From a virus: a stretch of 64,000 nucleotides of DNA. Made by a program: the position numbers and the translations under genes. How positions within the stretch are numbered: position 1 is the first letter of the stretch; each line of letters opens with the position of its first letter. Below the pieces are notes generated by a model that saw only the letters and a program-made list of their open reading frames with translations, was not told the origin of the DNA and searched no databases. Shown one piece after another: positions 6,196-56,881 of this stretch. The stretch covers positions 1 through 64,000 of IMG/VR virus record IMGVR_UViG_3300019757_000007, one strand, 5' to 3'.

Positions 6196-7056
6196 CTAAT
6201 CTAATCGTCTGTCTACATGTATTCTTGGAGAATATCTTAGACCATTTTGTAGAGCCATTTTTGAAGATGCGTCTTTAGATGCTTCCCAAATATCTCTATC
6301 TTTATCCAATGGATCTTCTGGAGTCCAAGGCATAACTAGAATATTTCTATTTTCAAAACCAGCTTCTTTTACAAGATTAATTAATTTGAATAATAAGAAG
6401 TTATCTTTAGCGCCTTCTTTATACACAAATTTAAAATTAATTGGATAATGAATTAAATAAGTTTTACAGTTATCGATAACTTTTGAATACATCTCAAAGA
6501 TTTCATCATCAGTTAAAGAACCAGCATAACATTCTTCTGCATCAATTTTTGGACTAATAGTTAACATAGTATTGATACCTAAATCATTTTTAATAGTATT
6601 AAAAGTTTTTAGTACTTTAAGAACCACATCATCTTTACTTAAAAGATTTCCATTACTCTCAATTCCTAAATAATCCAAAGACTTAGATTCTAAATCTTGA
6701 CCCCAATGAAATATCTGAGGGATAAATTCAATAAAATGTAAAGGTTCCCCACCTGTAATAGTCATTCTTTTAATTTCTTTTCCAGCCATTTCAGTTTGTA
6801 CTTTTTCAGTTAATGAACCAAGTTCATCTTTACCATCTTTTACAAACCAAGAATATTTAGAATCACACCAAGTACAAGAAGCAGAATAGCAACCGGCTAA
6901 TCTAATATATAAAGATGGTTCTCCAATAGCCCCACCCTCTCCTTCTAAACTACAAAACCATTGACTAATCTTTGGAAACTTATTAATAGTATCAAAAAAT
7001 AATTTCTTATCTTTTAAGTTATTATTTTCTGTTATTAAATCTCTTTCATTTTTCAT
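6196..7056 (-). CDS. queE: QueE-like radical SAM enzyme (7-carboxy-7-deazaguanine synthase)
   Basis: 286 residues. QueE converts carboxy-tetrahydropterin to 7-carboxy-7-deazaguanine, an early step toward preQ0. The N-terminus shows the family pattern: SLEGEG (36-41), IGEPSLYIRLAGC (44-56), then the Fe-S cysteines C56, C61 and C64 and DSKYSW. ITGGEPL around residue 100 is the SAM-binding GGEP motif. The cysteine spacing is CX4CX2C rather than the usual CX3CX2C. The length is slightly above bacterial QueE. Together with Gat-QueC at 41614 it implies a phage 7-deazaguanine route; QueD, FolE and the DNA-inserting enzyme are not in this window. Confidence 0.9.
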   Translation of the reverse strand: MKNERDLITENNNLKDKKLFFDTINKFPKISQWFCSLEGEGGAIGEPSLYIRLAGCYSASCTWCDSKYSWFVKDGKDELGSLTEKVQTEMAGKEIKRMTITGGEPLHFIEFIPQIFHWGQDLESKSLDYLGIESNGNLLSKDDVVLKVLKTFNTIKNDLGINTMLTISPKIDAEECYAGSLTDDEIFEMYSKVIDNCKTYLIHYPINFKFVYKEGAKDNFLLFKLINLVKEAGFENRNILVMPWTPEDPLDKDRDIWEASKDASSKMALQNGLRYSPRIHVDRRLD

Positions 7057-8418: not shown

Positions 8419-9297
8419 TTATTTAAAATATATTCCAGTTTTTTCAAATAAATCATCATTACTAAATTGATATAATTCATCTAAAAAGATAACGCTATCT
8501 TTATAAGTAGCTATTGGATAATCCATTATATCTTTATCATGAGTTCTAATAATATAACCCATTTTAATTCTACCATCATCATTCATAACTATTAAAACAT
8601 CCTTATTCTCAATATTAACATAACTATTATTTAAGTGATAATTAATTCTTAAAAGACTTTGAGGAATAGTAAAATTATCTCTCCATCTATATCGATAATT
8701 TAATCGGGGATCAATACTCTTATAATAAAGACCAAAGGCAAAATTATTATATTCATTTCCAATACTATGATTTTCCATAAAATTACGAGAATGATAATCT
8801 ATTACCCTCACTCTAGCTGTTTTACGATTACTTCTATATAATAAATTATATATACCACAATAATCATTGTCTAATGATAAAAAGATTAATAAAGTTTCTA
8901 TAAACATAATACAAAATAAAGCTGGTATTTCAAATAATGTAAATAAATTTAAACCGAAAAAATTTCCTATATACCATTTATTTTTTTTATAAGTTACATT
9001 CATAAATACATGTAATTGATTCATATAATAATCAGGTAAAACTATATTATGTTTCCCAAATTTATTAAATAATTTAAGAATTTTTAAGAATAAAAAGAAA
9101 CGGGTATGATAAAAAAGTAAAAAGGTAAAATCCCTAATTGGATATATCACCATACGCATAATTGGGTTACTATTAAAATTTCTATATAAATTATGAGTAA
9201 TCGAATAATAAAACAGAGTAAGTATTATTATATCGACCCCATTATCTTTTAAATTAAATCTTTTTTTACTTTTAAAATTTTTATAATCATATATCAA
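8419..9297 (-). CDS. Probable membrane protein with TTG start
   Basis: 292 residues. Hydrophobic segments lie near residues 22-36, 55-75 and 115-142, the last being the most convincing transmembrane pair. The C-terminal half is soluble, Tyr/Asn/Arg-rich. The start is a TTG codon at 9297-9295, chosen because AAGGAGG sits at ideal spacing upstream and no in-frame ATG is near. It overlaps the end of the polymerase exonuclease gene by 11 bases. No family recognised. Confidence 0.7.
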   Translation of the reverse strand: MIYDYKNFKSKKRFNLKDNGVDIIILTLFYYSITHNLYRNFNSNPIMRMVIYPIRDFTFLLFYHTRFFLFLKILKLFNKFGKHNIVLPDYYMNQLHVFMNVTYKKNKWYIGNFFGLNLFTLFEIPALFCIMFIETLLIFLSLDNDYCGIYNLLYRSNRKTARVRVIDYHSRNFMENHSIGNEYNNFAFGLYYKSIDPRLNYRYRWRDNFTIPQSLLRINYHLNNSYVNIENKDVLIVMNDDGRIKMGYIIRTHDKDIMDYPIATYKDSVIFLDELYQFSNDDLFEKTGIYFK

Positions 9298-10390
9298 AAA
9301 ATACCTCCTTGTTTAATTTTTTAAATCTTAGCAAATCATCTTGCTTAGTATAATGTAAATTATTTCTAAAAGTATACATTAGTGACCTACCATTAGTAGT
9401 AGCACTCATAATACTATTATTATAATTATTTAAAGACCACTGTAACTCCATAAATTTTAATTTATTATCTAATAAATATACAATAAGTGTATCGAAAATA
9501 TTGTACGTAAGATAACCAACTATATTATTAAGATAATTCCAATTGAATCCTCCAGGTAAATCTAACTTATTTATTTTTAACTCTACTTCAGCTACTGTAT
9601 TTAATTTATAATTAGGTAACGATTTACCTAATCCCCCACCCATTTGATCTACTGGTTTATATAATTTTAATATATCTACCTTTAGATAATCTGGCCAATC
9701 GTAAGAATTTCCTCTTTTTTGAATTTGAGCAAACTCCGATATAATTCTAGCTGCTTTATCTTTACCAACTAAGTTAATTAGTCGGTTAGTTATATAAGGA
9801 TCATCAAACAGATCACTATTAAATCCAATTAAGAATAAAGATTGTTCATCTATTCTATCTTTAAAGAAAGCCGATAATAATTCAACCTCATCTTTAAATG
9901 GAATAACATTTATTTCTATATTGGGAATTTTATAGGCTGGATTAGTTACACATAAATCATCGTATAACTTTCTTACCTCTTCTTGAATAACAGCTGTGTC
10001 TCTAATATTTGGATACATCATTCCTGCATTTGGATCATTAGTAAGATTGGCCTGTAGTTGAGTTAAGTAATAAACATCTACTTTATTTAAAACTGAATTA
10101 TAGGCCGCTATTGCATTTACTTGCCTACTAGCTTTTTCTGGATCTGGAAAGTATGGTTCATCTACCCAAGTCTCAATATCATAATAAGTTTTATTAAGAA
10201 CTTTTAACTGAGGATCTGGTTCAATAAACCCTTTCTTTTTAAAATCATGAAAAGCATAAGCACTTGGATTAAAATCAACATTATAAAATCTATAAAATTT
10301 TAAATCTTCTTTTATTCTATTCATCAATTCTTTTTTTACTTTATTATCTAGAATTACTTGATGATTAGTAAATGGAACTTTTGGTATCAT
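9287..10390 (-). CDS. Family B DNA polymerase, 3'-5' exonuclease (N-terminal) piece
   Basis: 367 residues. The three DnaQ-type exonuclease motifs are in order: Exo I YYDIET (69-74), Exo II FNSDLFDDPY (190-199) and Exo III YNIFDTLIVYLL (296-307). The 200-residue spacing matches the T4/RB69 gp43 arrangement. The protein ends about 60 residues after Exo III, before motif A (the DxxSLYP of family B polymerases), so it has proofreading but no polymerase catalytic residues. The start overlaps the stop of the palm/thumb piece by four bases (ATGA). The C-terminal piece is therefore encoded upstream of the N-terminal one. Confidence 0.88.
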   Translation of the reverse strand: MIPKVPFTNHQVILDNKVKKELMNRIKEDLKFYRFYNVDFNPSAYAFHDFKKKGFIEPDPQLKVLNKTYYDIETWVDEPYFPDPEKASRQVNAIAAYNSVLNKVDVYYLTQLQANLTNDPNAGMMYPNIRDTAVIQEEVRKLYDDLCVTNPAYKIPNIEINVIPFKDEVELLSAFFKDRIDEQSLFLIGFNSDLFDDPYITNRLINLVGKDKAARIISEFAQIQKRGNSYDWPDYLKVDILKLYKPVDQMGGGLGKSLPNYKLNTVAEVELKINKLDLPGGFNWNYLNNIVGYLTYNIFDTLIVYLLDNKLKFMELQWSLNNYNNSIMSATTNGRSLMYTFRNNLHYTKQDDLLRFKKLNKEVFFDI

Positions 10391-11352
10391 AATTTTCCTT
10401 CAAATAGTTTTTCAAATTGAACAATCTTCATATTAATATTAATATCCATAATTCTATCATAATCAATTTTTATATCCAATTCCTCAAATAGCTTTTTAAT
10501 TTCTATCAATTCCTCTTCTTTAAATTCGCTTTCCGATGGAAATGCAATAACATTAATTTTTCTATCCATTAGCTCTATTGGTAATTGATACTTACTTATT
10601 ACTGGTTGAGAATAAGTTCTTTTAATTAATAATTCTCTACTAATTTTAATAGGTACTAAAGAAATACTATCTCCTGGTCTAAGTTTATCATTAAATAAAT
10701 AATTATAAAGCATAGCTCCTTTAATATGAATAGGTATCGTTTTCTTTTCGGATAACGGCCATTTCTTTGGAGTAATAAATTCAGCGAATTTAAAATTATT
10801 AATACTGTCCCCTAATTGCTTAACATATTTATTTTTAATCTCTTTAAAAATTATATTATATATTTGAGGTATACTCTTTAAGTCGGTTCTAATAGTTAGT
10901 ACTTTATAAATATCAGTAAGTAAATTAAAAGTAATCCCACTACAATCCGCTTTAAGTATTTGACCACCAGTTTTCTTAATTTCTAATTCCTGATAAAAGG
11001 TACCTTCCATCCAAATTTTAGCTAATGCATAAAACTTTTTAGTATTAAAGAATCCTCTATAAGCAACAACCTCTGATTTAAAATCCATCATATTATATTT
11101 TGGATTTATATTGGCTCTTTTAAATAAAAGAGTATCGTATATATTTTTATATTTTATATTAGCATCTTTAGCTACTTTTTGACTATAATCAACAGTCTTC
11201 AAAGAACTATCAAATTTACTAAAGGGTAATTTTAAAATATTATAGGTACTATCGGTATCCGCATATTTTAAGTTAGGTTTAAACTCTATTGTATCGATAA
11301 AGTTTATATCAAAAACTCCATCTAAGTCATCAGCCATCGCAATCGTGTTCAT
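10387..11352 (-). CDS. Family B DNA polymerase, palm motif C and thumb (C-terminal) piece
   Basis: 321 residues. Motif C is KYADTDSTY (29-37), with both metal-binding aspartates. Then come KKFYALAKIWMEGTFY (105-120), the basic KKxY block that follows motif C in T4 gp43, and later PIHIKGAMLYNYL, which matches the FHIRG-LTYN block of the T4 thumb. The ending IVQFEKLFEG corresponds to the clamp-binding tail ASLFDMFDF. Motifs A and B (fingers) are absent here and in the exonuclease piece. It begins only about 28 residues before motif C. The three pieces would have to assemble to make an active polymerase. Confidence 0.9.
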   Translation of the reverse strand: MNTIAMADDLDGVFDINFIDTIEFKPNLKYADTDSTYNILKLPFSKFDSSLKTVDYSQKVAKDANIKYKNIYDTLLFKRANINPKYNMMDFKSEVVAYRGFFNTKKFYALAKIWMEGTFYQELEIKKTGGQILKADCSGITFNLLTDIYKVLTIRTDLKSIPQIYNIIFKEIKNKYVKQLGDSINNFKFAEFITPKKWPLSEKKTIPIHIKGAMLYNYLFNDKLRPGDSISLVPIKISRELLIKRTYSQPVISKYQLPIELMDRKINVIAFPSESEFKEEELIEIKKLFEELDIKIDYDRIMDININMKIVQFEKLFEGKL

Positions 11353-12160: not shown

Positions 12161-15133
12161 CTAAGTAGTTAAATAATTATAATAGTCTTCAAAATTCTTT
12201 ATTAATAGTTCTTTAAACAGTAATAAATCCTTTTCTAATTTTAATATATTATCTTCCGATAACATACACCTATGTTTTAATAATATCTCTAATTCTTTTT
12301 CAAACAATTTTAAAGCTTGATATCTAGATTCTTTACAGCTAAATAAATTACCCTCGCTTTTTTGGGCTAAACTATCTAATAAATTATCTTTCTTTTTACT
12401 ATTTAATATCATGTATTGAGAGTTTCTATCTTTTTCATAATCAGTATCATCTGATGAAGCAAAGTAATTAAAATTTTCTCTCATTCTTTTCGGTAAATTT
12501 ACAACATCTATTTTATTTAAGAATGAATCTAGTACTTGCTTTTGCGCTAAATCTAAATCTCTTTTTTCATCAGTCTCTAAATTAAAATCTAAACCAAATT
12601 CTTGATTAAATGTTTTATTATATTTATTATAATATTTATCATCCCCATTAAAAAAAGATCTTAATATTAATTCTGGATAAGGCATATCAATAAATTTTTT
12701 AAATAAAGGGAATTCGTTTAATGTTTCATTATCTAATAAAGAAATATATCTACAAAAATTAGTCATCATTAATGAACTCATCGAGTTAGTTCCAATTAAT
12801 TTTAAATTTTCTTTCGTTAAAGAAGGAAGTTCCTTTTCAAATATATTTTTACTTATATTATTACTAATAGTATTTATCATCTCAGATGGAAAAAATATTG
12901 AGCTCAATTGAGTAGAATATTCTTCTCCTTTGCCATAATAATTAGACTCTTTTATTTCTAGAAAATCGATCGCCCCATTCTTTAATAATTTATTATGTCC
13001 TTGCTTAGTACTAAAATATATTTTTACTGGTTTCCCAAATTTATCCTGAACAGCTTGCTCTATAATTTTCATTAGCCCCAGATATAAAAAAGCTGGGAAA
13101 TGAGTATAAGTAAAATTATTATCTTTTAATAGTTTATTTCTATCAATAGCTAAAGCGTTATCATTATTTATATGAATTGAAACAATTGATATATCTTTAA
13201 TACTTTCATTATCTATTGGAATAGTTGTAGGTCGGATATAATGTCCTAATTTACTTCTATTTGAAAAAAGATTTAACCCAATAAGATTAGGAATAAAATT
13301 AAAACCCCGAACTGGCACATTAGACGCCTCTCCCATATTTTTTAAATCTTCTTCTTTGAATAGTTTTTCACTCAGCCAATTAACAGCGTATCTATCATGC
13401 AATTTTTTAAAATTAATTCCTTTTAAAATCAATTCCGCTGGTATACTTTTTACTTCAAGCAAAGCTATTTTGGGGCGATTATGTAATAGTTTTAGTTTTC
13501 TAGATTTAAATTTAGTATCATCTACTATAATTAATTCTTCTACACCATTTTGAAAAACATCAGAAATATTTGGAACCATAGAAACTTGAACATATTTTGA
13601 CCTAGATTTCTTTTTTAATACAAAATGTTCGTCTTCTCTTTTAAATATTTTACCTAGATTTAATTTATCTAAATATAATCTTTTATCCTCTGGAACATCC
13701 AGTATCATTTGATAAAAATCATAAAAAGGTATTAACGATAATTTATCTGGAGAATTAAATCCTGCCTCATAGCTATCAATAGATATACCTAAACTAGATC
13801 CAAATATTGGACTAAGTTGATTTAATAAATTTGATGTCATTCTACCTAGATAATTGCTTTTTTTAAATAAATCTATTAAAGATATTTTATTTATACCTTG
13901 TGGAGTTAATCTTATATCCTCTTTATATAGAGAAGTATTTGTAATTTTAAAATTAGATAAAATAGAAAAAGTAACTCTAGTTCTCTTAAAAACATCAAAT
14001 AAAGTTGTTATGATATTTTTTCCAATAAATACTAAATCATGAGCTATTTTATTTTTAATTTCTCTTAAATCTAAAGTATCTATTTTATAATGAAGATTAT
14101 TTAATATAAGAATACTCCAACAAAAAATCTTTTCTCTTTCCTCTTGATTCAATTTACCTAAAATTGTATCTTTAATATGGTGTTGATAATCTTCATAAAT
14201 ACCTGGAATAGAGTTAAGATGCATATTTGTCTGAGAATAATAACCTTCCTCATTGCATAATACAAAACCATTTATATCGTCTCGATGGGAAGAATTTATA
14301 GTTACTAAATTAGATAAACTTTCTGGATGAGAAGATTTAAATAATATATCTTTATTATTATGCTCTATGTAGTTTATATAGTGAAAATTATTATTTAGAT
14401 TATTATCAATTCCATTTTTATATACTACTTTATTATCTTTAATTTGCATAAGATATTGGAAACTATCATCTCCAAAAGAATCGTTGCTATAGTTTTTTCT
14501 AACCATATGTCGTACTAGGTCATTATCAGAAGCATATCTAAAATTTCCATTATAATACATATCCTGTATATTTAACTCTTCAATATTAAAAGTAAAATTA
14601 GTACTATAATTAGATAAATCTTTTTTTTCTAAGAAATTAAAAATATTAGGCAATAAAAAAGAATCTTTCATAAAGAAAAGTAACTTTGGTTTATTTAAAT
14701 AACCCATTACCTCATTTAGATAAGGCCCAGATGGATATTTAGAATGATTTTGACGATAAACTCTTTCTAATAAAACTCCAATATTTTTAGATATATCAGT
14801 TCTATAAAATAAATTTTGTGGATTAGTACTAAAATCATTATATTCAATATTACTGTAATTATTACTTACGTCAAACATATTATCTTTATCGAAATGACAA
14901 ATTACCGAAATATTCTCAAAATTTAAATCTAAAAGATGTTTTGAATTTTTTAGATTATTTAAAAAATGCCTGCTTTCTAAATCCGAATTAAGTACGACAC
15001 TTAATAAGGAATAATTACCTCCATTATTTAATTTTATAGTCTCAATATTTAATGTAAAATTAAAATCTGGTATATGAGAATTTTTTGCAGTTTCATCTAT
15101 AATATTAAAAATATTATTAAATGTGTTTTCCAT
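12161..15133 (-). CDS. Large orphan protein, 990 residues
   Basis: The second-largest protein in the window, unrecognised. It is soluble, Asn/Lys/Leu/Ser-rich, with alternating alpha and beta stretches throughout and no transmembrane segment, Walker motif, nuclease motif or polymerase motif visible. The C-terminal 130 residues are strongly helical and charged. No low-complexity repeats. It stands alone between the spacer at 12107-12160 and the terminator at 15166-15204, close to the DNA polymerase pieces. A virion or replication role is possible, but nothing in the sequence decides between them. Confidence 0.75.
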   Translation of the reverse strand: MENTFNNIFNIIDETAKNSHIPDFNFTLNIETIKLNNGGNYSLLSVVLNSDLESRHFLNNLKNSKHLLDLNFENISVICHFDKDNMFDVSNNYSNIEYNDFSTNPQNLFYRTDISKNIGVLLERVYRQNHSKYPSGPYLNEVMGYLNKPKLLFFMKDSFLLPNIFNFLEKKDLSNYSTNFTFNIEELNIQDMYYNGNFRYASDNDLVRHMVRKNYSNDSFGDDSFQYLMQIKDNKVVYKNGIDNNLNNNFHYINYIEHNNKDILFKSSHPESLSNLVTINSSHRDDINGFVLCNEEGYYSQTNMHLNSIPGIYEDYQHHIKDTILGKLNQEEREKIFCWSILILNNLHYKIDTLDLREIKNKIAHDLVFIGKNIITTLFDVFKRTRVTFSILSNFKITNTSLYKEDIRLTPQGINKISLIDLFKKSNYLGRMTSNLLNQLSPIFGSSLGISIDSYEAGFNSPDKLSLIPFYDFYQMILDVPEDKRLYLDKLNLGKIFKREDEHFVLKKKSRSKYVQVSMVPNISDVFQNGVEELIIVDDTKFKSRKLKLLHNRPKIALLEVKSIPAELILKGINFKKLHDRYAVNWLSEKLFKEEDLKNMGEASNVPVRGFNFIPNLIGLNLFSNRSKLGHYIRPTTIPIDNESIKDISIVSIHINNDNALAIDRNKLLKDNNFTYTHFPAFLYLGLMKIIEQAVQDKFGKPVKIYFSTKQGHNKLLKNGAIDFLEIKESNYYGKGEEYSTQLSSIFFPSEMINTISNNISKNIFEKELPSLTKENLKLIGTNSMSSLMMTNFCRYISLLDNETLNEFPLFKKFIDMPYPELILRSFFNGDDKYYNKYNKTFNQEFGLDFNLETDEKRDLDLAQKQVLDSFLNKIDVVNLPKRMRENFNYFASSDDTDYEKDRNSQYMILNSKKKDNLLDSLAQKSEGNLFSCKESRYQALKLFEKELEILLKHRCMLSEDNILKLEKDLLLFKELLIKNFEDYYNYLTT

Positions 15134-17707: not shown

Positions 17708-17742
17708 CGACAGGAATACAGACTAAGGTTTTACCCTTAATC
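17708..17742 (-). terminator. Hairpin plus CCTGTCG element, copy 2
   Basis: GATTAAGG-GTAAAA-CCTTAGTC stem (17721-17742, one G-U pair) overlapping the stop of the RNAP beta C gene, then TGTATTCCTGTCGTTAAA. Promoter 2 follows 65 bases later. Confidence 0.55.
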
Positions 17743-19809
17743 TATAATAATATTTGCTTCGAGCAATTCCTGTTCCGCTTCTAATTTTCTAGCAGCTATT
17801 TCATCTTCTGTTAAAAATTCCATACCAATCATCTTCAATGCATTATTGATAGTTTTTTTGGTATTACTTTCATATCTTTCTTTCATTTGATATTCGCCAT
17901 CTTTAATAATTTTCATTAAAAACGATTCTTTATCTTCCATACTATCCGATTTAAAAGTAAATAACTCTTTTAAGATATTGTTATTTTCTTTATGAGATAA
18001 TAAAGCAGCCGTTGTTTGCCAAGAAATATGTTGACCACCTTGCTTCTTTCTACCTCTTGTTGGTTGACCAGTAGTTTTACTATAACTATTAGTAAACGCA
18101 ATAGCATTATATTTAGAATTACTTGTATGATATAATTTGCTTAGGTAGTTTTCTCCACAATAACATTCAATTTCTTGTTCATAAAAACTATCTATTTTAC
18201 TTGATTTAAAGATAGTACTTTCAAACCCAAGATAAGTTCTTAAGTACATCATTAATTTATTTTCAAATTTAATTTTACTTTTTGAATTTAGATCTATTCC
18301 AAATCTTTCTCCGTACTGAGCAATAAAATCTTCATAATACTCAGCATAAGTAATATCATTAAAGTTTCTAAAATAAAAATATAATTTATCTTTGACTACA
18401 TTTTCTCTTAATTCACTTAAGTTATTAGATAAAATTTCTTTAACTGATAAGTAATATTCTTCATCAGTTCTTTTAATTAAATTTTCATTAACGAATTCAA
18501 TTCTTTCTTTAAAATCAAGTAAATCATCAGCACCTTCTATATCTCGAACAATCTTACTCATAGCTAATTCAAAAATACTTCCCCAGTTATTTCTACCAAA
18601 GATTCCTAATGGATTAAATATCATATCAAATGGTAAACCAGTCTTTGGATCTTTAGGCATTAAATCATCTGGAATAACTAAACCAACCACACCTTTACCA
18701 GCATATAAGTTAGTGAACTTATCTCCTCTAGAAGTATTCTCAGTATAACTAGTATCAACCTCAATAATATAATCAATATCATCTGGATCTAAATTATAAT
18801 TATCTCTCATATCATTTAGAACTGATTTAGGTACAGTTTCCATACTAATATATTGATTATATAAAGTATCACTTAATTCATCAATTTTATCTTGAGGTAG
18901 TTTTAAAGAAGTAAAACATTTAGTTAAATCTTCTTTAGTAGTTTTTTGCGAATTGTCGTAAAATTCTAATTCATCAATAAGTTCTTTTGTATAAAGATAA
19001 GCTTCTCTATTTTCATTAAAAGTTTTTTTAGTAATAGTATGTACTCTGATGTTATCTACAGTACCACCTTGAATACCTTTAAAACTTTTAGTATAATATT
19101 TTGATTCTGTATGTTCATCTAAATTAATTACTTCCGTTAAGAAGAATTCAGATGCATCTATCATATAGTAACTTAAAATGTTTTCAGTATTTAATTTATC
19201 CCCTAATTTAGGTAAATAATCAATACCATTTTTTAAGAATCTCATCTGTTTAGTAACTGGAATAAACATCTTATCGCTATATTCTATTTGAGTTTTCTTA
19301 CTAAATGATTCAGAAATAACAACAGCATCATCAGCCGCGTATCCAAAGAAACTACTAAATAAAATATTCGCTCTATATCCAATTCTCGGCATTTTAATTT
19401 CTGGCAGCATATTAGTATAATCAAATAATAAAGCCCCTTTCTTAAAACTCTTATATTCATCAGCAATACAATATTTTAAACTAAGACTATTATTAATTAA
19501 TTTTTTATGACCAGGTACTTGTTTAAATATCATTCTCTTTTCAGTAGTATAATATAATATAAGTATTTCTTTTTGATAGAATAAAACTATTCCGTCATCT
19601 TCTGCAATTTCCGAATAAGGAGAATTGATTTCTGATAATGAACTATAGTATTTATCAATAACAATAGGTGTTTCCGTTTTTTTAGATACAACTACTTGGG
19701 TTAGCTGTTTAGAAGCCATTTGCAATCTGCTTGGATCTACATTATTAGCAAATGGTACGAATGTTTCTATTTGTGGACTAAACAATACTACATTTTTATC
19801 TTGTTTCAT
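17737..19809 (-). CDS. Non-virion RNAP beta subunit, C-terminal catalytic piece
   Basis: 690 residues, matching bacterial beta from just after the fork region to its end. PFANNVDPSRLQMASKQL (19-36) equals the PFLEHDDANRALMGSNM block. GYRANILFSSFFGYAADDAVVISE (144-167) equals the NxLVAFMPWxGYNFEDAIVISE block. RGDKFTNLYAGKGVVG (361-376) with FNPLGIFGRNNWGSIFE (398-414) equals the GDKMAGRHGNKGVV...NPLGVPSRMNVGQILE region. A GGQHISWQTTAALLSH block near residue 615 equals the GGQRFGEMEVWALEAYG region that contacts beta'. The N-terminal half of beta is the separate gene at 22261. Confidence 0.95.
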   Translation of the reverse strand: MKQDKNVVLFSPQIETFVPFANNVDPSRLQMASKQLTQVVVSKKTETPIVIDKYYSSLSEINSPYSEIAEDDGIVLFYQKEILILYYTTEKRMIFKQVPGHKKLINNSLSLKYCIADEYKSFKKGALLFDYTNMLPEIKMPRIGYRANILFSSFFGYAADDAVVISESFSKKTQIEYSDKMFIPVTKQMRFLKNGIDYLPKLGDKLNTENILSYYMIDASEFFLTEVINLDEHTESKYYTKSFKGIQGGTVDNIRVHTITKKTFNENREAYLYTKELIDELEFYDNSQKTTKEDLTKCFTSLKLPQDKIDELSDTLYNQYISMETVPKSVLNDMRDNYNLDPDDIDYIIEVDTSYTENTSRGDKFTNLYAGKGVVGLVIPDDLMPKDPKTGLPFDMIFNPLGIFGRNNWGSIFELAMSKIVRDIEGADDLLDFKERIEFVNENLIKRTDEEYYLSVKEILSNNLSELRENVVKDKLYFYFRNFNDITYAEYYEDFIAQYGERFGIDLNSKSKIKFENKLMMYLRTYLGFESTIFKSSKIDSFYEQEIECYCGENYLSKLYHTSNSKYNAIAFTNSYSKTTGQPTRGRKKQGGQHISWQTTAALLSHKENNNILKELFTFKSDSMEDKESFLMKIIKDGEYQMKERYESNTKKTINNALKMIGMEFLTEDEIAARKLEAEQELLEANIIID

Positions 19810-19817
19810 TTTTTTCC

Positions 19818-21548
19818 TTATTTATGACTTGTTCTAGATATTAATTGTCCACATGTTGGACATTGACAAGGAGAGGTAAGTTCAGTAAGAGTTTGGTAGT
19901 AAGTATCCTCAAATTGTTCAGCACAATTACCACAAATGTATTTTCTTACTGTATCTTTTTCTTCTTTATCTCCATTACTATCTAAAGGAATTTCAACATC
20001 TTCGCTATCTTTTAATAGTTCTTTTGCAAAATTAAATGCATTTCTTTCTTCTGATATTTCAATTAAAGTATTCGCAACTGTTTTATCATCTCTAATTTCG
20101 ATAAATCTTGGATGCATTAAACTCCAAATTTCAATACCATCTTTAATATTATCATCGGATAATGTAATATCATTAGCTCTTACTTCTACAATTTTACCTA
20201 AGTATTTTTCTTGATTGTTCCAAATCTCATGTTTCCTATCTTCTGTAAAACCACTTGTTTTACTTTTTAATAAACCATCTTCACTTTCAATAAAAATAGC
20301 TCCAAGAGTATTCTTATATTTACCAGAACCTTTTTCAAAACCAACTATTTTATAATCAGAACTAAATTCATTTTTAAATTTAATACAATTCGTGCTTTTC
20401 CCAGATTTAAATAGTCCAGAAGCTTCTTTTAGGATTATACCTTCTTTACCCTCTTTTAATTTATTCTCAAAATACTTAATTGCCCCTTGTAATTGATTAA
20501 TTCCAAAATACTTATAATCGACTAATTGTATATGTTTAAAATCTTTTAATTTTTTTAAACAACTTTTTAAAGCTTCAAATCTAGAAAGATTATCCGATTT
20601 TAATAAAGCAGAATTAGTTAAATCCCAAACAGTATATCTAATTTTAGATTGTAATTCCTCAAAGGATTGACCAAAAGTTTCTTCTAATGCAGCTATATAT
20701 TTTTTTAATTCCGCCTTAGTTAATCCTTCTTCCTTTTTATTATAAATAGTAGTAAGTGCTTTAAATACCCCATTACTAGTTAATCTATCTAAACCTTCAA
20801 TAGTAAATTCCCCATGAAGAACTGATTTATCATGAACCATACTTTTAAGTTGTTTGAACTCAGCTGCTAATTCTTTAAAATTAATACTAATCGGTTTTAA
20901 TCTTCTAGATTGAAATCCATTTCCTGATTTTAAATCACTACAATCATTTATACTCGCAAATGAAAATAAACCATCAGCTTTTTCTTGAGCTATATAAAAT
21001 CTAGTATTATTTTTTTTAGCAATACTATATTTAGAAACTCTTTTTACTATATTACTAATTCCAGGAAAAGAAACAGCTCCCATATATTCAGGTAAAGGTA
21101 AACAATAAGGAATTCCAGTATTAATTCCCTTTTCTGACATACCAATTTTTAAATCTCTATCTATTATTTTTTGGACAAGAGATCTGGTCTCGTTATCACA
21201 AGACCTAAGTATTTCGCATAATTTTTCATTTGCTTTATTTCCAGTTAATTTATCAACTAAAAAAGCTTTATCTAATTGAGCCATAGCTTCTACAATATCG
21301 TTTATAGGTAGGCTAAAATATTTTGATTTAGTTTTTAATAATTTATTAGGAACATTTTTTATTCCAAAAATAATAAATGGACTATAAACATAATTAAAAT
21401 ATTGTTTAACTATTTTCTTTTCGGTATTATTTATACTAGAATAAAACATCGCTAATTCATTTCTTTTTTCATTAGTACCAGTAAGGGCTGAGATTCTATT
21501 TAATACTTTATATAATTCATTATTAAGTAATACTATTTTATTTATCAT
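19818..21548 (-). CDS. ATP-dependent DNA ligase with C-terminal zinc ribbon
   Basis: 576 residues, close in plan to T4-type ligases. The nucleotidyltransferase motifs are visible: motif I EKADG with the adenylated lysine K190, SRR shortly after, LHGEF (motif III), EGIILKE (motif IV) and CIKFK (motif V). A helical DNA-binding domain precedes motif I. After the OB-fold region there is an added C-terminal segment with CGNC and CQCPTCG, a four- or five-cysteine zinc ribbon not usual in this ligase type. Lies between RNAP beta C and the SSB-like gene, so a replication/repair role inside the nvRNAP cluster is likely. Confidence 0.92.
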   Translation of the reverse strand: MINKIVLLNNELYKVLNRISALTGTNEKRNELAMFYSSINNTEKKIVKQYFNYVYSPFIIFGIKNVPNKLLKTKSKYFSLPINDIVEAMAQLDKAFLVDKLTGNKANEKLCEILRSCDNETRSLVQKIIDRDLKIGMSEKGINTGIPYCLPLPEYMGAVSFPGISNIVKRVSKYSIAKKNNTRFYIAQEKADGLFSFASINDCSDLKSGNGFQSRRLKPISINFKELAAEFKQLKSMVHDKSVLHGEFTIEGLDRLTSNGVFKALTTIYNKKEEGLTKAELKKYIAALEETFGQSFEELQSKIRYTVWDLTNSALLKSDNLSRFEALKSCLKKLKDFKHIQLVDYKYFGINQLQGAIKYFENKLKEGKEGIILKEASGLFKSGKSTNCIKFKNEFSSDYKIVGFEKGSGKYKNTLGAIFIESEDGLLKSKTSGFTEDRKHEIWNNQEKYLGKIVEVRANDITLSDDNIKDGIEIWSLMHPRFIEIRDDKTVANTLIEISEERNAFNFAKELLKDSEDVEIPLDSNGDKEEKDTVRKYICGNCAEQFEDTYYQTLTELTSPCQCPTCGQLISRTSHK

Positions 21549-24101: not shown

Positions 24102-24301
24102 ATCGTAAATATACTAACATATTCTACTATTCCCATTAAAATTAGTAGGCATATACATTCTATTGGACTAATGTCATTTAAATAATGATTTTCATTCATG
24201 AATAGAGCCATAAAGAAGAAAGTTATTATTCCAAATGCGACTATTCCTATTGTTGATTGAAAATACATACCGAAGATATCTCCGGTTAAGAACGCTTCCA
24301 T
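24092..24301 (-). CDS. Small two-pass membrane protein
   Basis: 69 residues with hydrophobic stretches at about 14-32 and 46-66. The start codon shares one base with the RNAP beta' C stop, so it is translationally coupled to the polymerase gene. Function unknown. Confidence 0.62.
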   Translation of the reverse strand: MEAFLTGDIFGMYFQSTIGIVAFGIITFFFMALFMNENHYLNDISPIECICLLILMGIVEYVSIFTIWE

Positions 24302-26307
24302 TAGTAGTAGATATCTAAGATATCATTATACATATGAGTAGTTCCTTCGCTAAATTTTGCTTTATAAACATTTGAAATAGCTCTATTACTAAAGTTATAA
24401 AATATTGATAATTTAGGATCTAACTGCTCAATTACATTTTTCAATGCTACCTGTTTAACTATCTCTTTATCACTATATCTAATTAATAATCCATCTTCAT
24501 CATAGAATAATAATGATAAAATCATTTCAAAATAAATACTAAGAATATTATTTTGAGTAATTACTTCTACTAGATTACCATAAATATCGTTAATACTTCT
24601 AAGAGCATCATCTTTTCTATTTTTATCAATTAAAGAAACAATTCCATTTAGAATCTTAACAGAATCATCATTAAATGGTAATTCATTTACAGTAATAGTT
24701 AATACTTCTTTATTATTTTCTTTATCTTCATGTGTATCTAAAGTAATATGTTCTTCATTTGGATATTTCTTAGCTAAATAACCTTTGATATAATCTATAT
24801 CTTCCGGTGCTCCAACTATTGAGTCTCCACCTACTACAGTTGATCTCATAAATATTTTAGATATTTCTCTATCTTCCTCAGTAATAAAAGCTCCACCAAA
24901 GTGATGCGTTCTAAGAACAGATTGAATAATACCTTCCGCAATATAAGAACCAAGACTAGCTCCAACATGTTTACTTGTTGGTTGTTTACTACCAAAACAT
25001 TTTTTACAAATACCAAAACCATGAGTCTTACATCTAATAGGAGATCTTAATTTAATATCAGTTCCTATTAATTCAGTTTCTGTTCCAGTTAATTCTCTTT
25101 CTTCTGTTCCAGCATCATACCATCTATATTTTAAAGACATTAGATGATCTTTATCTAAAATAGTAAATTTCTCATAACTTTTATTTTCATGAGATATATC
25201 TTCTTGACAATCTTCGATATCAATTCTAAAATTTAAAATACCAGTACTAAAGAAGAATTTTCTTTGTAGTTCTCCACCCTTTGGAATAGCATCCTGTCTT
25301 TGCATTAATGCTAGTCTAGCTGAATCTCCAGTACCAAAGTACTCTTCTTGAGTTAATCCATCAAGTAATGAATTTTCTATATTTCTAGGAAAAGCCTTTC
25401 CATAAATATCTGTTGGAATACCTGTATTACTAGCTGCTTTAAGTAACTGAACTGATTTCAGTCTAGCTCCAGAATCATAAACCTTATCTAGAATATTTTC
25501 TTTATCTTTTTCAACCTCTGGTCTAATAAAGTTTTCGAAAAGAACTAGATTTTGATGGAAAGCTAAATATGGTTCTACTTGAATCATATTCTTTTTGTAT
25601 TCCTCAATAGCATCGCTTCGTACACTAAAATCATCTAATTTAAAACTTGGATTACAGCTACTAATAACTGTTCCTACTTCTAAAAATAATTTATTTAACT
25701 CATGAACCCAATTATAAAATTGATTTTTATCTTTAGTGAATTCGATCTTTTTCCAAAAATCATAAGTCATTTTCATAAGATTCTTTTTATTTAAAGCTAC
25801 TCTATTTGTATAATAAACTTTAAATTTATCATCAATATGAACTTCTTCATTATGAACTTCCTGATTTTCATCCCATTCAGTATCATTTAAACTTCTATTA
25901 ATTAACCATTCAGTTAAATGAAGACCATCCTCGTTACCTTGAATAGGAAGTTGTTCTATATTAATAATTAATTTACCAGCTGAGATATCTTCGATATTAA
26001 TATATTTTTCTCTTAACTCTGCAAAATCTTTTACAGTTACCTTTGTACATTCATTATTTTCAATATTATCTAACATAATTTTTGTATACATATAAGAAGC
26101 ATAAATACTCTCATGTTCATAACTGAACAGTAAAGAATCTCTATGTTCGAATTCCACTAAATTATTTACGAAATGATCGTGGAAATCTTCTCTTGCTTGT
26201 TTTGAATGAAGTGCGACAGAAATCATAGTATCACCATCATAATCATGGTTCGTAAATTGAGAAACATTACTAGATATTTCTTTTACTCTATTTCTTTTTA
26301 TTTGCAA
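24301..26307 (-). CDS. Non-virion RNAP beta' subunit, C-terminal catalytic piece
   Basis: 668 residues beginning 20 residues before the catalytic loop HDYDGD (21-26), the NADFDGD equivalent with all three metal-binding aspartates. A bridge-helix-like segment YDSGARLKSVQLLKAA (277-292) and a trigger-loop-like segment from GLTQEEYFGTGDSARLAL (317-334) to LQRKFF (347-352) follow. RCKTHGFGICKKC (425-437) is the second zinc site. GSYIAEGIIQSVLRTHHFGGA (453-473) equals [24 protein letters not shown]. The upstream half is the gene at 28012. No alpha or omega subunit is seen, as expected for phage enzymes. Confidence 0.95.
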   Translation of the reverse strand: MQIKRNRVKEISSNVSQFTNHDYDGDTMISVALHSKQAREDFHDHFVNNLVEFEHRDSLLFSYEHESIYASYMYTKIMLDNIENNECTKVTVKDFAELREKYINIEDISAGKLIINIEQLPIQGNEDGLHLTEWLINRSLNDTEWDENQEVHNEEVHIDDKFKVYYTNRVALNKKNLMKMTYDFWKKIEFTKDKNQFYNWVHELNKLFLEVGTVISSCNPSFKLDDFSVRSDAIEEYKKNMIQVEPYLAFHQNLVLFENFIRPEVEKDKENILDKVYDSGARLKSVQLLKAASNTGIPTDIYGKAFPRNIENSLLDGLTQEEYFGTGDSARLALMQRQDAIPKGGELQRKFFFSTGILNFRIDIEDCQEDISHENKSYEKFTILDKDHLMSLKYRWYDAGTEERELTGTETELIGTDIKLRSPIRCKTHGFGICKKCFGSKQPTSKHVGASLGSYIAEGIIQSVLRTHHFGGAFITEEDREISKIFMRSTVVGGDSIVGAPEDIDYIKGYLAKKYPNEEHITLDTHEDKENNKEVLTITVNELPFNDDSVKILNGIVSLIDKNRKDDALRSINDIYGNLVEVITQNNILSIYFEMILSLLFYDEDGLLIRYSDKEIVKQVALKNVIEQLDPKLSIFYNFSNRAISNVYKAKFSEGTTHMYNDILDIYY

Positions 26308-28011: not shown

Positions 28012-29496
28012 TTATATTTCCTCAGCTTCTAAAGCTTGTATTTTTGTGTTGTAAATTTTTCTTACGGCCATTTTCATATTATTTAAATAAATTTTGGAAA
28101 AAGCAGAACCTTTCTCTTGTAACGCTCTGACATAATCAGGTGCTTCATTCATTGCTTCGAAATAATATTTTCTGTATTCATCCGGAATACCTATTTCTGT
28201 AAACTCAGGTATTTGATAAATATCATCCTCTGAATCCCCGTAGCTTCGAGCTATAGAATAACAACTACTACTAAACTTCCATAAGTTAGGTTGTCTTTCA
28301 GTAAGTACCCTAAAATCTTTCATTTTCTTTTCTAAGAAGTTTTTAAAATCTTCATCAGGTAAAGTAATTTCAAAATTATTATTGAACCTATCATAGATAT
28401 ATTGGATATATTCCACCACGTCAAAACTATTTTGAGAACCATCCTCATCAATAATACTAATCTCTTTATCTTCATATTCTACGAATAAATATCTTAGTAA
28501 TTCTGGTAAAAATATTTTCTTAATACTTTCTTCTGGTAAACCTAATTGATATGGTTTTAAAACTGGATTTGGAATAATAACAGCTCTCTGACTAAATTCT
28601 ACTGTTTTTCCAGTTAAAGATTCTCTTACATAATTATCTTTCTTTTGAAAATTAAATTGTAATATTTCGTGATATACATCATCAATACTTTGCTGATACT
28701 TATAAACAGTATTACCAAAAAAATCAGAATTTGTATTATAAAGATTATCAAGAACAGAAGTCCCTTTGGAAATATTTTTAAGTATTTCAATATAAGCCTT
28801 TGTAATTGGATGTGGTAAAATCTTAGTATTACTAATTTTTACTACCTGTCTACTATTTGGAGGAGTTACTAAAATATAATTTAAGAAAACATATTTTAAA
28901 TAATCTTCTTTAATACTACCAGTTAAATGATGTCGGTACTTCCATTCTACTGGAATTCCTTCCTCAGGTGGTTTTGCCATTAAATCATGCAATAAAAAAA
29001 ACAAGTCCTTTAAGGAATTAATATCAAAAACTGGATGATCAATAAAATCTTTATCACCTTCCGCTATTTTAGTACTTTTGATTAACTTATATTTCTTAAG
29101 ATGGAAATAATAAGGTGCTTCTTTATTACTATTATATGCATGTTTTGATAAAATATTTTTAATACTATTATGACCGAAAATATCTTGTAAAGCATTCTTA
29201 AAATCGGGGTTTACTATAAAGATACCAGCGGGTAACATTATTTTAGCGAATTGAATATTTCTAGATTCATTCTTAGAACATTTTACATTACAGTTTGTAC
29301 ATACTTTACTAGCATTTATTTTGCCAAATACTTTTCCACACTGACATTTATATATCTTTTCTGGGCCAAAAATTTGCTCCGAATAGAGCCCATCTTTAGT
29401 AAAAGTATCATGTTTGTTACTTGTAAAAATACTTGGGTTAGTGATTTCTTCTAAATCGTCGACACCAGCGTATTCCTTAAAATTAAGTACTATCAT
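28012..29496 (-). CDS. Non-virion RNAP beta' subunit, N-terminal piece
   Basis: 494 residues. The N-terminus follows bacterial beta': DGLYSEQIFGPEKIYKCQCG (35-54), with zinc-ribbon cysteines C51, C53, C66 and C69 (C73 nearby). LVTPPNSRQVV (209-219) equals VLPPDLRPMV. GKTVEFSQRAVIIP (296-309) with LKPYQLGLP equals the GKRVDFSGRSVI...LKLHQCGLP block. TERQPNLWK near residue 410 corresponds to LNRAPTLHR. It ends before NADFDGD, which begins the next RNAP gene at 26307. Four genes separate the two halves, counting the internal-start product. First RNAP gene to be transcribed in the cluster. Confidence 0.94.
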   Translation of the reverse strand: MIVLNFKEYAGVDDLEEITNPSIFTSNKHDTFTKDGLYSEQIFGPEKIYKCQCGKVFGKINASKVCTNCNVKCSKNESRNIQFAKIMLPAGIFIVNPDFKNALQDIFGHNSIKNILSKHAYNSNKEAPYYFHLKKYKLIKSTKIAEGDKDFIDHPVFDINSLKDLFFLLHDLMAKPPEEGIPVEWKYRHHLTGSIKEDYLKYVFLNYILVTPPNSRQVVKISNTKILPHPITKAYIEILKNISKGTSVLDNLYNTNSDFFGNTVYKYQQSIDDVYHEILQFNFQKKDNYVRESLTGKTVEFSQRAVIIPNPVLKPYQLGLPEESIKKIFLPELLRYLFVEYEDKEISIIDEDGSQNSFDVVEYIQYIYDRFNNNFEITLPDEDFKNFLEKKMKDFRVLTERQPNLWKFSSSCYSIARSYGDSEDDIYQIPEFTEIGIPDEYRKYYFEAMNEAPDYVRALQEKGSAFSKIYLNNMKMAVRKIYNTKIQALEAEEI

Positions 29497-38581: not shown

Positions 38582-38797
38582 TTAATTCCAGTTATCTATA
38601 ACTTTAGATAAATCATCTCTTAACTCTACTATAGAATCAATAGGAAGAACTCCTACTAAATCCATAATTTCGTAGCTAAGATCATCTATCTTTTCATCTA
38701 ATTCTTCATTAGAAGAGTATTCTATAGTCATAACATCCTCTAATACCAAACACTTATCGTTTTCTTTTACTATAGGAAGAACTTTTATTACTCCCAT
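38582..38797 (-). CDS. Small unknown acidic protein
   Basis: 71 residues from Met at 38797, where AAAAGGTTTATAATG both ends the clamp-loader gene (TAA) and starts this one. Acidic helix rich in Asp/Leu, ending KVIDNWN. Coupled to the clamp loader, so perhaps a partner of it; no evidence beyond position. Confidence 0.64.
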   Translation of the reverse strand: MGVIKVLPIVKENDKCLVLEDVMTIEYSSNEELDEKIDDLSYEIMDLVGVLPIDSIVELRDDLSKVIDNWN

Positions 38798-39834
38798 TAT
38801 AAACCTTTTCTTTTTCCTATCTCTAGAAAACATTTATTGATAGTACTCATTAAATGCAAGTTAGGGAATTTTTTAAGATCTATATCTTGATAGTTTTCAT
38901 GAACAATATTCTTAACATCTAAATGAAAAGGACCTTCTTTGATTCTATCAAAAATAAAATCATAATCTAAAGTCATATCATTTTTAGTAACGTCTAAAAT
39001 ATTTTTATAGTATTGACCAAGAGTTGGATCATTCATAACGTTTGATAATAAAAGATTTATTTTTTCTGGAGTAAGTAATTCTACTGATTGAATTAAATAA
39101 GTAATTAATTCAAGTATGTACTCTTCATTGTTATTAGTACTTTTAAATTCTCCAATACCACCGAGAGTTTTAACTCCATTTACTTCACTTATATTAATCT
39201 CTAAATTGTTTACTAAATCTCTTAAACCTTTAGCAATATTTTTATAAGTAAATTCCCATACTTTTTCTTTATCATATTTAACTTCTTCTTTATCAAGAAT
39301 ACCTAAAAGATAAGCAAAAGCGGTTTCAGGTTGAATCTCTTTAAAATTTAATCTAAAATTAAATCTAGTTTTTAAAGCTTTATCTAATCCTTCGACTCTA
39401 TTTGTATTAGCAATAAAAGTAGTATTATGTTGATACTTCTCCATAAGATCTACTTTTAACATTGTTTGAGCTTCTTTACTTAATTTATCAGCTTCTTCAA
39501 TAAGTACGACTCTTTGATGACTTTTACCTTTACCTGGAACTAACCAAGCTTTTAATTCTTCGATATCATTAACACCTTTACCAACCATATGATAATCTTT
39601 AGGTTCTAATAAAAGCGCTGCTTTTAAGATATCCGCTAATGATGATTTACCAAAGCCACCAGGTCCATAATTTAATATATTTCCAGGTACATTTTTATTT
39701 TGAACCATACTTACAAATTTTTTCTTAATCTCTTCCGGAGACATTTCTTCTTCATTTAATATATTTGGAAAGATTAAATCATCCATTATTTTAGGTTGAT
39801 GTTTTTTATACCAGGCTCTATTATCTACTTGCAT
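38797..39834 (-). CDS. Clamp-loader ATPase (AAA+, T4 gp44-like)
   Basis: 345 residues. Walker A NYGPGGFGKSS (55-65), Walker B VVLIEEAD (109-116), sensor 1 TTFIANTN and the arginine-finger block ALKTRF, all in the order of sliding-clamp loaders. EEAD replaces the bacterial DEAD. The C-terminal 150 residues are helical like the collar domain. It would load a sliding clamp for the split family B polymerase. The clamp and small loader subunit are not evident in this window. Confidence 0.92.
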   Translation of the reverse strand: MQVDNRAWYKKHQPKIMDDLIFPNILNEEEMSPEEIKKKFVSMVQNKNVPGNILNYGPGGFGKSSLADILKAALLLEPKDYHMVGKGVNDIEELKAWLVPGKGKSHQRVVLIEEADKLSKEAQTMLKVDLMEKYQHNTTFIANTNRVEGLDKALKTRFNFRLNFKEIQPETAFAYLLGILDKEEVKYDKEKVWEFTYKNIAKGLRDLVNNLEINISEVNGVKTLGGIGEFKSTNNNEEYILELITYLIQSVELLTPEKINLLLSNVMNDPTLGQYYKNILDVTKNDMTLDYDFIFDRIKEGPFHLDVKNIVHENYQDIDLKKFPNLHLMSTINKCFLEIGKRKGL

Positions 39835-41613: not shown

Positions 41614-43029
41614 TTATAAGTCTAATTTTTTTTCAGCAGTATCTCTTAGAATACAACTACCACATTTACCACACTTTTCTCCATTTATCGGATAGTAACA
41701 ACTAAACGATAATTCTAATAATTTTTCTAAAGTACTTTCTCTGAATTCATTTTTGAAATCTTTAAGAGTATTAGTCTTAGTGCGATTCATATAAGGAGAA
41801 ATAATTTGAGTATTTTGATAAAACTTACCACCAGCATTTAACATCTGTTCAGTACATTCAACCCACTTACTATTATTATCTCCAAATACCATTCCTTCCG
41901 AAAGATTTAAACCAAGTACGATAATATTATTATCTCCTCGTTTTCCTTCTTTCTGCATAGTAGCATTTAAAGCCATACAAAATAAAGTATTTCTATATGG
42001 AACATAAGATATATTTTCTTCTGTTTCTCTAGCATCTCCAACCGCATCTTTGTCAGCTATTTTTAAATAATCTCCAGAAATATTAGAAAATCCTTTGATC
42101 ATATCACTAGCTTCTACCACTCTTAATTCTATAGATAATTCTGGAAACTTCCCTATATAAAAACCAAGTAATCTTTGACAAGCTTCTATTTCCACTTTAC
42201 TAGCATTAGTACCATAATCAAAATAAGTTAAAATAACTTTTTGCTTCCCAATATCTTTATTATCCAAAGATCTATTTGATCTACTTTCTAATTTAGCCAG
42301 AATATAATAAGCACTCATGCTTATATCCATACCAGCACTAAAAGCAATATTTACAGTATCAATTCTCTTTCTAGTACTACTTGTAATTACTTGATTCTTT
42401 TCATTATCAAAATTAGAACATTGTTTTACTTGAACTTCATTTACTTCTTTTTCCCAAAGACCCATACCTTTATCATAAGCTTTTATACCATCAGTTGGAT
42501 AATCCATATCAAATACAAAATATGTAAATAGACCTTCTAGATTATCTATTTCTGATTCATTAATATATTTAAATAATTCAGTATCCACTGAAATATCTAT
42601 ACCATTTGGAAACTTTTTAGAACGATTATTTAATTCCCTAATATTATTAAGTACCTCTTTATCATTACTAATAGTACCATGAACCCAATAATATTGAGCC
42701 ATTCCTTTATTCCAATATGGTGGAATTAATACATTGTTTGCTTCCTCCTCTGGAATTTGTCTACTAAACCATACCATAGTAATACCTTCATCTGGATGAT
42801 GAATATTTATAAAATCCTTTAATATAGAAACATCTTGAATAAAGGTTTCTTCATCTTTTGATCTAATAATTAATGGTTCATGTTCAGCCATTTCTCCAAC
42901 TACAAATAAACTGTACTCATCCGATCCTTTAACATTTAAAGTATCTATCGTACTAGCTATATTTCCGGATAAAGATGCTCTTAAAGCATCATCTTGATTT
43001 TTATAATATTTACTTACTATTTGACACAT
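41614..43029 (-). CDS. queC: Gat-QueC: class II glutamine amidotransferase fused to QueC
   Basis: 471 residues, twice the length of QueC. The N-terminus begins Met-Cys, giving the nucleophile Cys2 of class II (Ntn) glutaminases. YWVHGTISN (114-122) and DTELF (149-153) match their glutamine-binding blocks. The C-terminal half is QueC: PP-loop FSAGMDIS (230-237) and a four-cysteine zinc site C444, C453, C456, C459 (YYPINGEKCGKCGSC). QueC makes preQ0 from 7-carboxy-7-deazaguanine. Gat-QueC fusions are known from phages and have been tied to 7-amido-7-deazaguanine DNA. With QueE it supports modified phage DNA. Confidence 0.93.
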   Translation of the reverse strand: MCQIVSKYYKNQDDALRASLSGNIASTIDTLNVKGSDEYSLFVVGEMAEHEPLIIRSKDEETFIQDVSILKDFINIHHPDEGITMVWFSRQIPEEEANNVLIPPYWNKGMAQYYWVHGTISNDKEVLNNIRELNNRSKKFPNGIDISVDTELFKYINESEIDNLEGLFTYFVFDMDYPTDGIKAYDKGMGLWEKEVNEVQVKQCSNFDNEKNQVITSSTRKRIDTVNIAFSAGMDISMSAYYILAKLESRSNRSLDNKDIGKQKVILTYFDYGTNASKVEIEACQRLLGFYIGKFPELSIELRVVEASDMIKGFSNISGDYLKIADKDAVGDARETEENISYVPYRNTLFCMALNATMQKEGKRGDNNIIVLGLNLSEGMVFGDNNSKWVECTEQMLNAGGKFYQNTQIISPYMNRTKTNTLKDFKNEFRESTLEKLLELSFSCYYPINGEKCGKCGSCILRDTAEKKLDL

Positions 43030-45809: not shown

Positions 45810-45846
45810 CGACAGGAAATGAAGAGTTACGGATTATCCGTAACTC
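45810..45846 (-). terminator. Hairpin plus CCTGTCG element, copy 3
   Basis: GAGTTACGGATAATCCGTAACTC stem (10 base pairs, 45824-45846; longest run split as GAGTTACGGA/TCCGTAACTC) including the recJ stop, then TTCATTTCCTGTCG. Confidence 0.6.
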
Positions 45847-47524: not shown

Positions 47525-47575
47525 ATTTTTCCCTTTTAATTTTATCCTTAATATATCTATTAGAACTAAGTCCAA

Positions 47576-52518: not shown

Positions 52519-53223
52519 ATGGGTAGGAAGAAAAAGAATATAATTGATGTTATTACAGACTTTAATAAAAAACATGGAAATTTTTATGATTATTCTTTAA
52601 TAGATTATAAGAATAGTAATAGTAAATTAAATATACTATGTCCAATACATGGATCTTTTTGGCAAACTTCTAATAATCATAGTCAGGGCCAAGGATGTCC
52701 TAAATGCCGTTCAAATAATAAAAAAACTTTAGCAGAAACCATTAACGATTTTAAAAAAGTTCATGGTAATAGATACGATTATTCTAAGGTTAATTATATA
52801 AATACTACTAAAAAAGTTGAGGTTATATGTAAAATAAAAAACCATAAATCATTTTTAGTTACTCCGAATAATCATAAAAAAGGAAGTGGGTGTCCATTAT
52901 GTAATAATAGTAAAGGAGAAACTTTAATTTTAACTTTTCTAGAAGATAATAATATTCTATTTAAAAAGGAATATACTTTTTCTAATCTTCCAAGAAAAAG
53001 ATTTGACTTCTTTCTAGAAGAATTAAATTTATGTATAGAATTTGATGGAAAACAACATTTTGAACCGATAGAACATTTTGGTGGAAAAGAAACATTTAAT
53101 TGGCTTAAAAGATCGGACAATCTTAAGAACCAATTTTGTAAAGATAATAATATTAAATTATTACGAATATCTTATTTAGAAATAAATAAAATTAAAGAAA
53201 TATTAAAAGGAAATATATGTTAG
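52519..53223 (+). CDS. Free-standing homing endonuclease, Vsr-like PD-(D/E)xK type
   Basis: 234 residues. Two N-terminal repeats of about 55 residues share HGN-x-YDYS-x-V-x-Y and end in zinc-type CP-x-C pairs (CPIHGSFW...CPKC; NHKSF...CPLC). The C-terminal 100 residues hold KRFDFFLEELNLCIEFDGKQ, then H-x7-HFGG and an RISYLEI strand, as in Vsr/EDxHD homing endonucleases such as I-Bth0305I. It cuts DNA to spread its own gene. It overlaps the RNAP beta gene by seven bases, which suggests recent insertion at that start. Confidence 0.85.
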   Translation: MGRKKKNIIDVITDFNKKHGNFYDYSLIDYKNSNSKLNILCPIHGSFWQTSNNHSQGQGCPKCRSNNKKTLAETINDFKKVHGNRYDYSKVNYINTTKKVEVICKIKNHKSFLVTPNNHKKGSGCPLCNNSKGETLILTFLEDNNILFKKEYTFSNLPRKRFDFFLEELNLCIEFDGKQHFEPIEHFGGKETFNWLKRSDNLKNQFCKDNNIKLLRISYLEINKIKEILKGNIC

Positions 53224-56342: not shown

Positions 56343-56343
56343 A

Positions 56344-56622: not shown

Positions 56623-56633
56623 AGGAAATTGAT

Positions 56634-56795: not shown

Positions 56796-56796
56796 A

Positions 56797-56850: not shown

Positions 56851-56881
56851 AAATAAAAAAAATAACAAGGAAAAAATTAAA

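Follow-up and report, generated by a model that had tools for sequence, protein, structure and literature searches.

In textbooks, family B DNA polymerases replicate DNA as a single polypeptide chain. Dassa et al. reportedly described fractured genes in 2009, in which the two halves carry parts of a split intein and flank a homing endonuclease. Here we describe a T4-type family B DNA polymerase whose parts are encoded by two genes, called E and C, in the IMG/VR virus record IMGVR_UViG_3300019757_000007. The record is linear and 74,566 bases long; its bases 1-64000 are referred to as the window. Split phage polymerases of this family are already known, as two pieces cut elsewhere, whereas three pieces, two cut sites and a permuted gene order are new; within the open-access literature searched, only two-piece phage forms turned up and no three-piece enzyme of this family. 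The T4-type polymerase of Aeromonas phages 25 and 44RR and of Acinetobacter phage 133 consists of two separate polypeptides, gp43A and gp43B, and those of Aeromonas phage 25 co-purify and show polymerase activity (PMC2988022). A two-piece polymerase is also found in the phiKZ group (PMC5105663; PMC5312081; PMC7598289). It is T4-related and encoded by genes tens of kilobases (kb) apart (PHIKZ082 and PHIKZ050; gp132 and gp152 in AR9), whereby PHIKZ082 contains the exonuclease and a terminal motif A-like stretch (ADLDIVSTYP) and PHIKZ050 the fingers and motifs B and C. A split intein in PolB1 of Aeromonas phages (Aes123 PolB1) has been described as well (PMC11923092).

In the window both genes lie on the minus strand, C with the tail of the polymerase first, followed by E with the exonuclease. 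E matches the family B exonuclease domain PF03104 in Pfam (E-value 5e-12) and positions 78-350 of the PHROG profile phrog_262 for T4-type DNA polymerases (E-value 4e-33), while C matches positions 575-824 of the same profile (E-value 1e-20). By profile, E covers residues 97-355 and C residues 612-812 of RB69 gp43. E stops just ahead of motif A and C begins past motif B, and the polymerase of the window is not one polypeptide, its parts sitting in separate open reading frames (ORFs). An earlier sequence-only reading of the window had described the exonuclease and motif C/thumb pieces as separate genes overlapping by four bases with the C-terminal piece first. The ORFs and the ATGA overlap confirm this arrangement (Table 1), and all motifs listed at that time (DIET, FNSD, YNIFD, KYADTDS, KKFYAL and an FHIKG-like stretch) are present, including HIKGAMLYN in C. 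The overlap suggests translational coupling of C and E. In alignments with T4 gp43, exonuclease motifs I-III are kept in E with their acidic residues (D112/E114, D219, D324); C has kept DTDS of motif C, KKxY and the C-terminal Fxx(L/I)F, and the thumb is present. The FEKLF stretch of C resembles the clamp-binding tail of T4 gp43 and is putatively involved in clamp binding. We are highly confident that E and C are two subunits of a heterotrimeric, gene-permuted T4-type family B replicase which would assemble non-covalently.

The region between both pieces, comprising motif A, fingers and motif B (positions ~350-575 of phrog_262), is found nowhere in the 74,566-base record, in which phrog_262 matches E and C only, even at E-values ≤ 10. 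The absence of motifs A and B noticed before for the window consequently extends to the remaining 10.6 kb of the record. Relatives were retrieved as IMG/VR contigs with E, C and alignments of each (handles starting with G). A phrog_262 scan of these contigs revealed a third, separate ORF of ~420 amino acids (aa), here called M, with motif A (DAxxLYP), R-x3-K and motif B (K-x-(T/S)-L-N-(S/T)-x-Y-G). Hence the protein with SLYP and NSxYG motifs, which the sequence-only reading had proposed to look for, is lacking in the record and has its own gene in the relatives, in line with the former claim that at least three proteins must combine. The fingers domain, reported as missing, is indeed absent from the record but present in the phage group as M, the record being a fragment. 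Between motif A and fingers M carries an insertion of ~140 aa. Compared with T4 gp43, M has kept the Asp of motif A, (S/A)LYP, the equivalents of R482 and K486 and the Lys, Asn, Tyr and Gly of motif B.

About a dozen further contigs likewise have C followed by E on one strand, which is far above chance. C directly adjoins E in G000, G001, G002, G003, G004, G007, G008, G010, G011 and G013, one to three genes lie between them in G005, G012 and G015, and the contig G006 includes just the end of C. Four contigs carry a complete M along with E and C, namely G003 (92 kb), G007 (227 kb), G012 (137 kb) and G013 (273 kb). G006 holds M together with E, whereby the contig ends truncate both C and M; in G009 (182 kb) M is located close to the left end, and E and C are absent. 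The distance of M downstream of E varies from ~2.7 kb (G006) over 9 kb (G003), 18 kb (G012) and 38 kb (G007) to 72 kb (G013, opposite strand). Contigs with E but without M end, without exception, ≤ 15 kb downstream of E; for the window record this distance is 9.3 kb, in the direction in which the relatives have M. The most plausible explanation is hence that the fingers piece of the window phage is located outside the contig. One could alternatively assume that this phage lost M and reuses E and C, so that E, for instance, would proofread as an independent exonuclease; the record contains no M, and in phiKZ-type phages the exonuclease resides in a different protein from most of the polymerase (PMC5312081, PMC7824862). 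We regard such a loss as extremely improbable, given this position of the record end, the lack of any obvious use for a C with intact motif C and thumb if M were missing, and the contig G016, which points to M in the nearest relatives.

Table 1. Features of the split polymerase in the window (positions in bases of the window).
Feature	Position	Strand	Description
E subunit gene	9287..10390	-	367 aa; N-terminal part and 3'-5' exonuclease domain of T4-type family B DNA polymerase
C subunit gene	10387..11352	-	321 aa; motif C, thumb and C-terminus of T4-type family B DNA polymerase
ATGA overlap, 4 bases	10387..10390	-	stop of C and start of E
Exonuclease motif I, DIET	10169..10180	-	equivalents of T4 D112/E114
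Exonuclease motif II region, FNSDLFDD (in GFNSDLFDD)	9800..9823	-	equivalent of T4 D219
Exonuclease motif III region, YNIFD	9491..9505	-	equivalent of T4 D324
Polymerase motif C, YADTDS	11248..11265	-	uninterrupted in the window; split intein at DTD|S in four relatives
KKFYAL, KKxY motif near thumb	11023..11040	-	from sequence and T4 gp43 alignment
FEKLF near C-terminus of C	10402..10416	-	relatives keep Fxx(L/I)F
Arm downstream of E to contig end	1..9286		relatives place M farther out in the same direction

G001 and G010 have E and C ~55% identical to those of the window, and both contigs end ≤ 15 kb from E. G016 (66 kb) carries a complete M without E or C. G001 and G016 both end in one array of 33-base-pair repeats inside a gene tail, with 97/97 and 71/71 bases identical. 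Moreover, out of 68 ORFs common to G007 and G013, 28 are found in G001 only, 16 in G016 only and just 6 in both, these six corresponding to a single locus per contig from one multicopy family. G016 thus very probably supplies M for the nearest relatives of the window, the link between G001 and G016 being strong but short of proof. If it holds, there is a strong case for M being located ~25 kb downstream of E in these relatives.

The multicopy family has at least six copies in G007 (55865-57415, 86035-87036, 120528-121928, 135124-136563, 147606-148790 and 182525-183643), and a single locus each in G001, G013 and G016 is matched by all of them. Assemblies of this clade break off within tandem repeats of gene tails, as seen at L129 (left end of G001) and L130 (start of G016). 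Such breaks may explain why M so often drops off assemblies.

Ratios of non-synonymous to synonymous substitution rates (dN/dS) are 0.036-0.068 for E and 0.040-0.051 for C. Both genes are under strong purifying selection. This bears on the possibility that E and C are decaying remnants and a different polymerase replicates the phage, as the broken gene order resembles damage and the record is without M. Against decay stand the selection, the intact catalytic residues, the recurrence of the same pieces in many contigs and an M which is present and conserved in relatives. Furthermore, no other replicative polymerase was found in the relatives searched. The profiles used were PF00476 (family A), PF07733 (family C/DnaE), phrog_262 and PF00136 (family B), phrog_2927 (phiKZ-type) and PF10391 (pol-lambda fingers), and apart from the E, M and C pieces themselves nothing exceeded the cut-offs. 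An intact family B, A, C or phiKZ-type polymerase, which according to the sequence-only reading would turn the pieces into remnants, is accordingly absent from the contigs searched. We thus consider decay highly improbable; a pseudogene or remnant status was rejected on the basis of dN/dS and the conserved catalytic residues.

Using the E alignment as query no relatives were found among the GTDB genomes. The listed matches of E and C among isolated phages are T4-like or other family B polymerases with ~24-29% identity. M gave one weak match in this comparison, to an apparently unbroken ORF of ~1000 aa from the uncultured phage LR756508.

Of the structure models, that of C is confident in the thumb half only and matches RB69 gp43 (Foldseek, E-value 2e-4), while the motif C half has low confidence when modelled alone. 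Distances between E, M and C correlate with r 0.83-0.92 over 15 pairs but only 0.26-0.77 without the outgroup, which is too weak, and they were not used as evidence.

Several observations weigh against a heterotrimeric replicase in the window phage. The presence of M in this very phage is deduced from its relatives, and M of a relative used as query against the whole 74,566-base record yields no match. The contigs G001 and G016 stem from different samples, and their overlap is short and of low complexity. Since none of these metagenome contigs is complete, a different polymerase might be encoded in their unseen parts. The dN/dS of M is higher (~0.17), derived from a single usable pair. Finally, M modelled as a single chain is poor at both palm parts and shows no convincing Foldseek match. 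The poor palm models would fit a palm that is formed only when M and C meet; shallow alignments or missing partners are other possible reasons.

Inteins do occur in this polymerase. A split intein divides the C piece a further time at YADTD|S in G003, G004 and G011 and at YSDTD|S in G007, with the half IntN ending one ORF and the half IntC beginning the next. The assignment has profile support in G003, G007 and G011 and was made by sequence in G004. G003 and G011 have an endonuclease-like ORF between the IntN and IntC ORFs, and G014 has two inteins, located in motif A and at motif C. Since phage genes rejoined by split inteins and introns are known, and since split inteins interrupt C in these four relatives, the pieces might be joined into one chain by protein or RNA trans-splicing, resulting in an ordinary single-chain polymerase. 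The breaks between E, M and C do not look like this. NCBIfam reveals no intein half at the termini of M and of the window C, and Pfam none in E; no Rfam intron was found in 58.7 kb around the genes, and each piece begins with a start codon of its own and stops near a conserved position. We therefore judge trans-splicing to be very unlikely, and because neither intein halves nor introns are found at the E/M/C breaks, non-covalent assembly is the best inference.

The former suggestion that inteins or homing insertions drove the break-up holds insofar as inteins and endonuclease genes invade the polymerase genes. Endonuclease-like ORFs directly follow E in G001, G005, G006, G011 and G015 and M in G016. 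However, the two permanent breaks are located ~15-30 residues upstream of the intein sites and not at them. Homing or mobile elements are hence only a plausible cause of the breaks. Endonuclease-like ORFs of one family, with DUF4379/DUF723 zinc-finger repeats and a nuclease-like C-terminus, are repeated throughout the genomes, often beside polymerase pieces (window 52519-53223(+); L001:5560-6300(+); L005:11049-11777; L068:11328-12227).

In the proposed heterotrimer E would supply the N-terminal part and the 3'-5' exonuclease. M, with its gene off this contig, would contribute motif A with one catalytic carboxylate, the fingers and motif B, and C would add motif C with the remaining catalytic carboxylates, together with the thumb and a tail resembling a clamp-binding one. 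Translation of the overlapping genes C and E is probably coupled. The three proteins would join non-covalently such that the palm, shared by M and C, closes in the complex only. A more far-reaching version, which we put forward tentatively and consider rather doubtful as a whole, is an obligate heterotrimer in which no protein has a complete active site and the ~140-aa insertion of M acts as a docking platform easing stepwise splitting and permutation, with four primary translation products in the intein-bearing relatives.

All three pieces match phrog_262 and together cover the exonuclease, motifs A, B and C, the thumb and the tail of T4/RB69 gp43, which differs by being encoded in normal order by a single gene and by lacking the insertion of M. 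The gp43A/gp43B pair of Aeromonas phage 25 may be taken as a precedent for non-covalent assembly (PMC2988022). There, however, two pieces occur in normal order, with the cut inside the fingers between R-x3-K and motif B (phage 133), whereas the clade of the window is cut before motif A and before motif C, so that both cut sites and order differ. The phiKZ-type enzymes share with this clade the split of a T4-related polymerase, the large distance of the genes and the co-occurrence with two multisubunit RNA polymerases. Their two pieces are cut between motif A and fingers; here the E|M cut precedes motif A and C is separate from M, and the phiKZ-type arrangement is not found in the window clade. 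phrog_2927 matches merely a part of M, and this in G003 and G009 only. As E partially matches the phiKZ-type profile phrog_3011 (E-value 5.5e-10), a distant kinship with the phiKZ-type split polymerase appears likely. The fractured-gene layout and the Aes123 PolB1 split intein resemble the additional DTD|S cut of C in the four relatives with IntN and IntC ORFs. Such ORFs are found at this cut only; the E/M/C breaks are free of inteins and C of the window is uninterrupted.

The contig G014 (86 kb) sheds light on the possible origin of this arrangement. Its C piece is directly followed by one ORF of 809 aa with exonuclease, motif A, fingers and motif B (E-M). A small tree that includes intact phage polymerases recovers the split clade as monophyletic (100%) and places G014 as its sister (100%), and G014 shares the ~140-aa insertion between motif A and fingers with M. 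Because of this sister position and the shared insertion, the permuted order C-(E-M) probably arose first and the E|M break second. A scan for further two-piece relatives returned G014 itself only. The likely route starts with circular permutation of the polymerase gene, either by tandem duplication and partial deletion or by transposition of C, and leads to the C | E-M form that G014 has retained. The E|M break would have followed and M would then have drifted away.

As for the genomic surroundings, putative RNA polymerase pieces are located at 17737-19809(-), 24301-26307(-), 28012-29496(-) and 53217-56342(+) of the window and at L001:6293-7621(+) and L001:7623-8894(+). They seem to belong to two multisubunit enzymes of the type found in phiKZ jumbo phages. 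Such RNA polymerases alongside a DNA polymerase and a clamp loader of T4 type cut across the grouping of jumbo phages in PMC7824862. Further replication genes code for a T4-type clamp loader, a RecJ-like nuclease, an ATP-dependent ligase and a primase/helicase-like protein (window 38797-39834(-), 45827-47575(-), 19818-21548(-); L001:482-3592(+)). QueE-like radical SAM and QueC-like genes (window 6196-7056(-), 41614-43029(-); L007:11472-12776), together with FolE and QueD-like genes in relatives, represent a 7-deazaguanine pathway, perhaps for DNA modification; the QueE-like gene of L007 appears to contain an intein. Just upstream of the polymerase genes an ORF of 990 aa (window 12161-15133(-)) has no significant Pfam or PHROG match. 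Seven tRNA genes are found at the right end of the record (L001:9649-11054).

Taken together, the three-piece form, the two-piece G014 and the inteins still entering a catalytic motif provide a rare stepwise series for the breaking of an essential enzyme into subunits. The natural split points could be used for building controllable polymerases. Annotation pipelines will overlook the replicase of such phages or label it as truncated.
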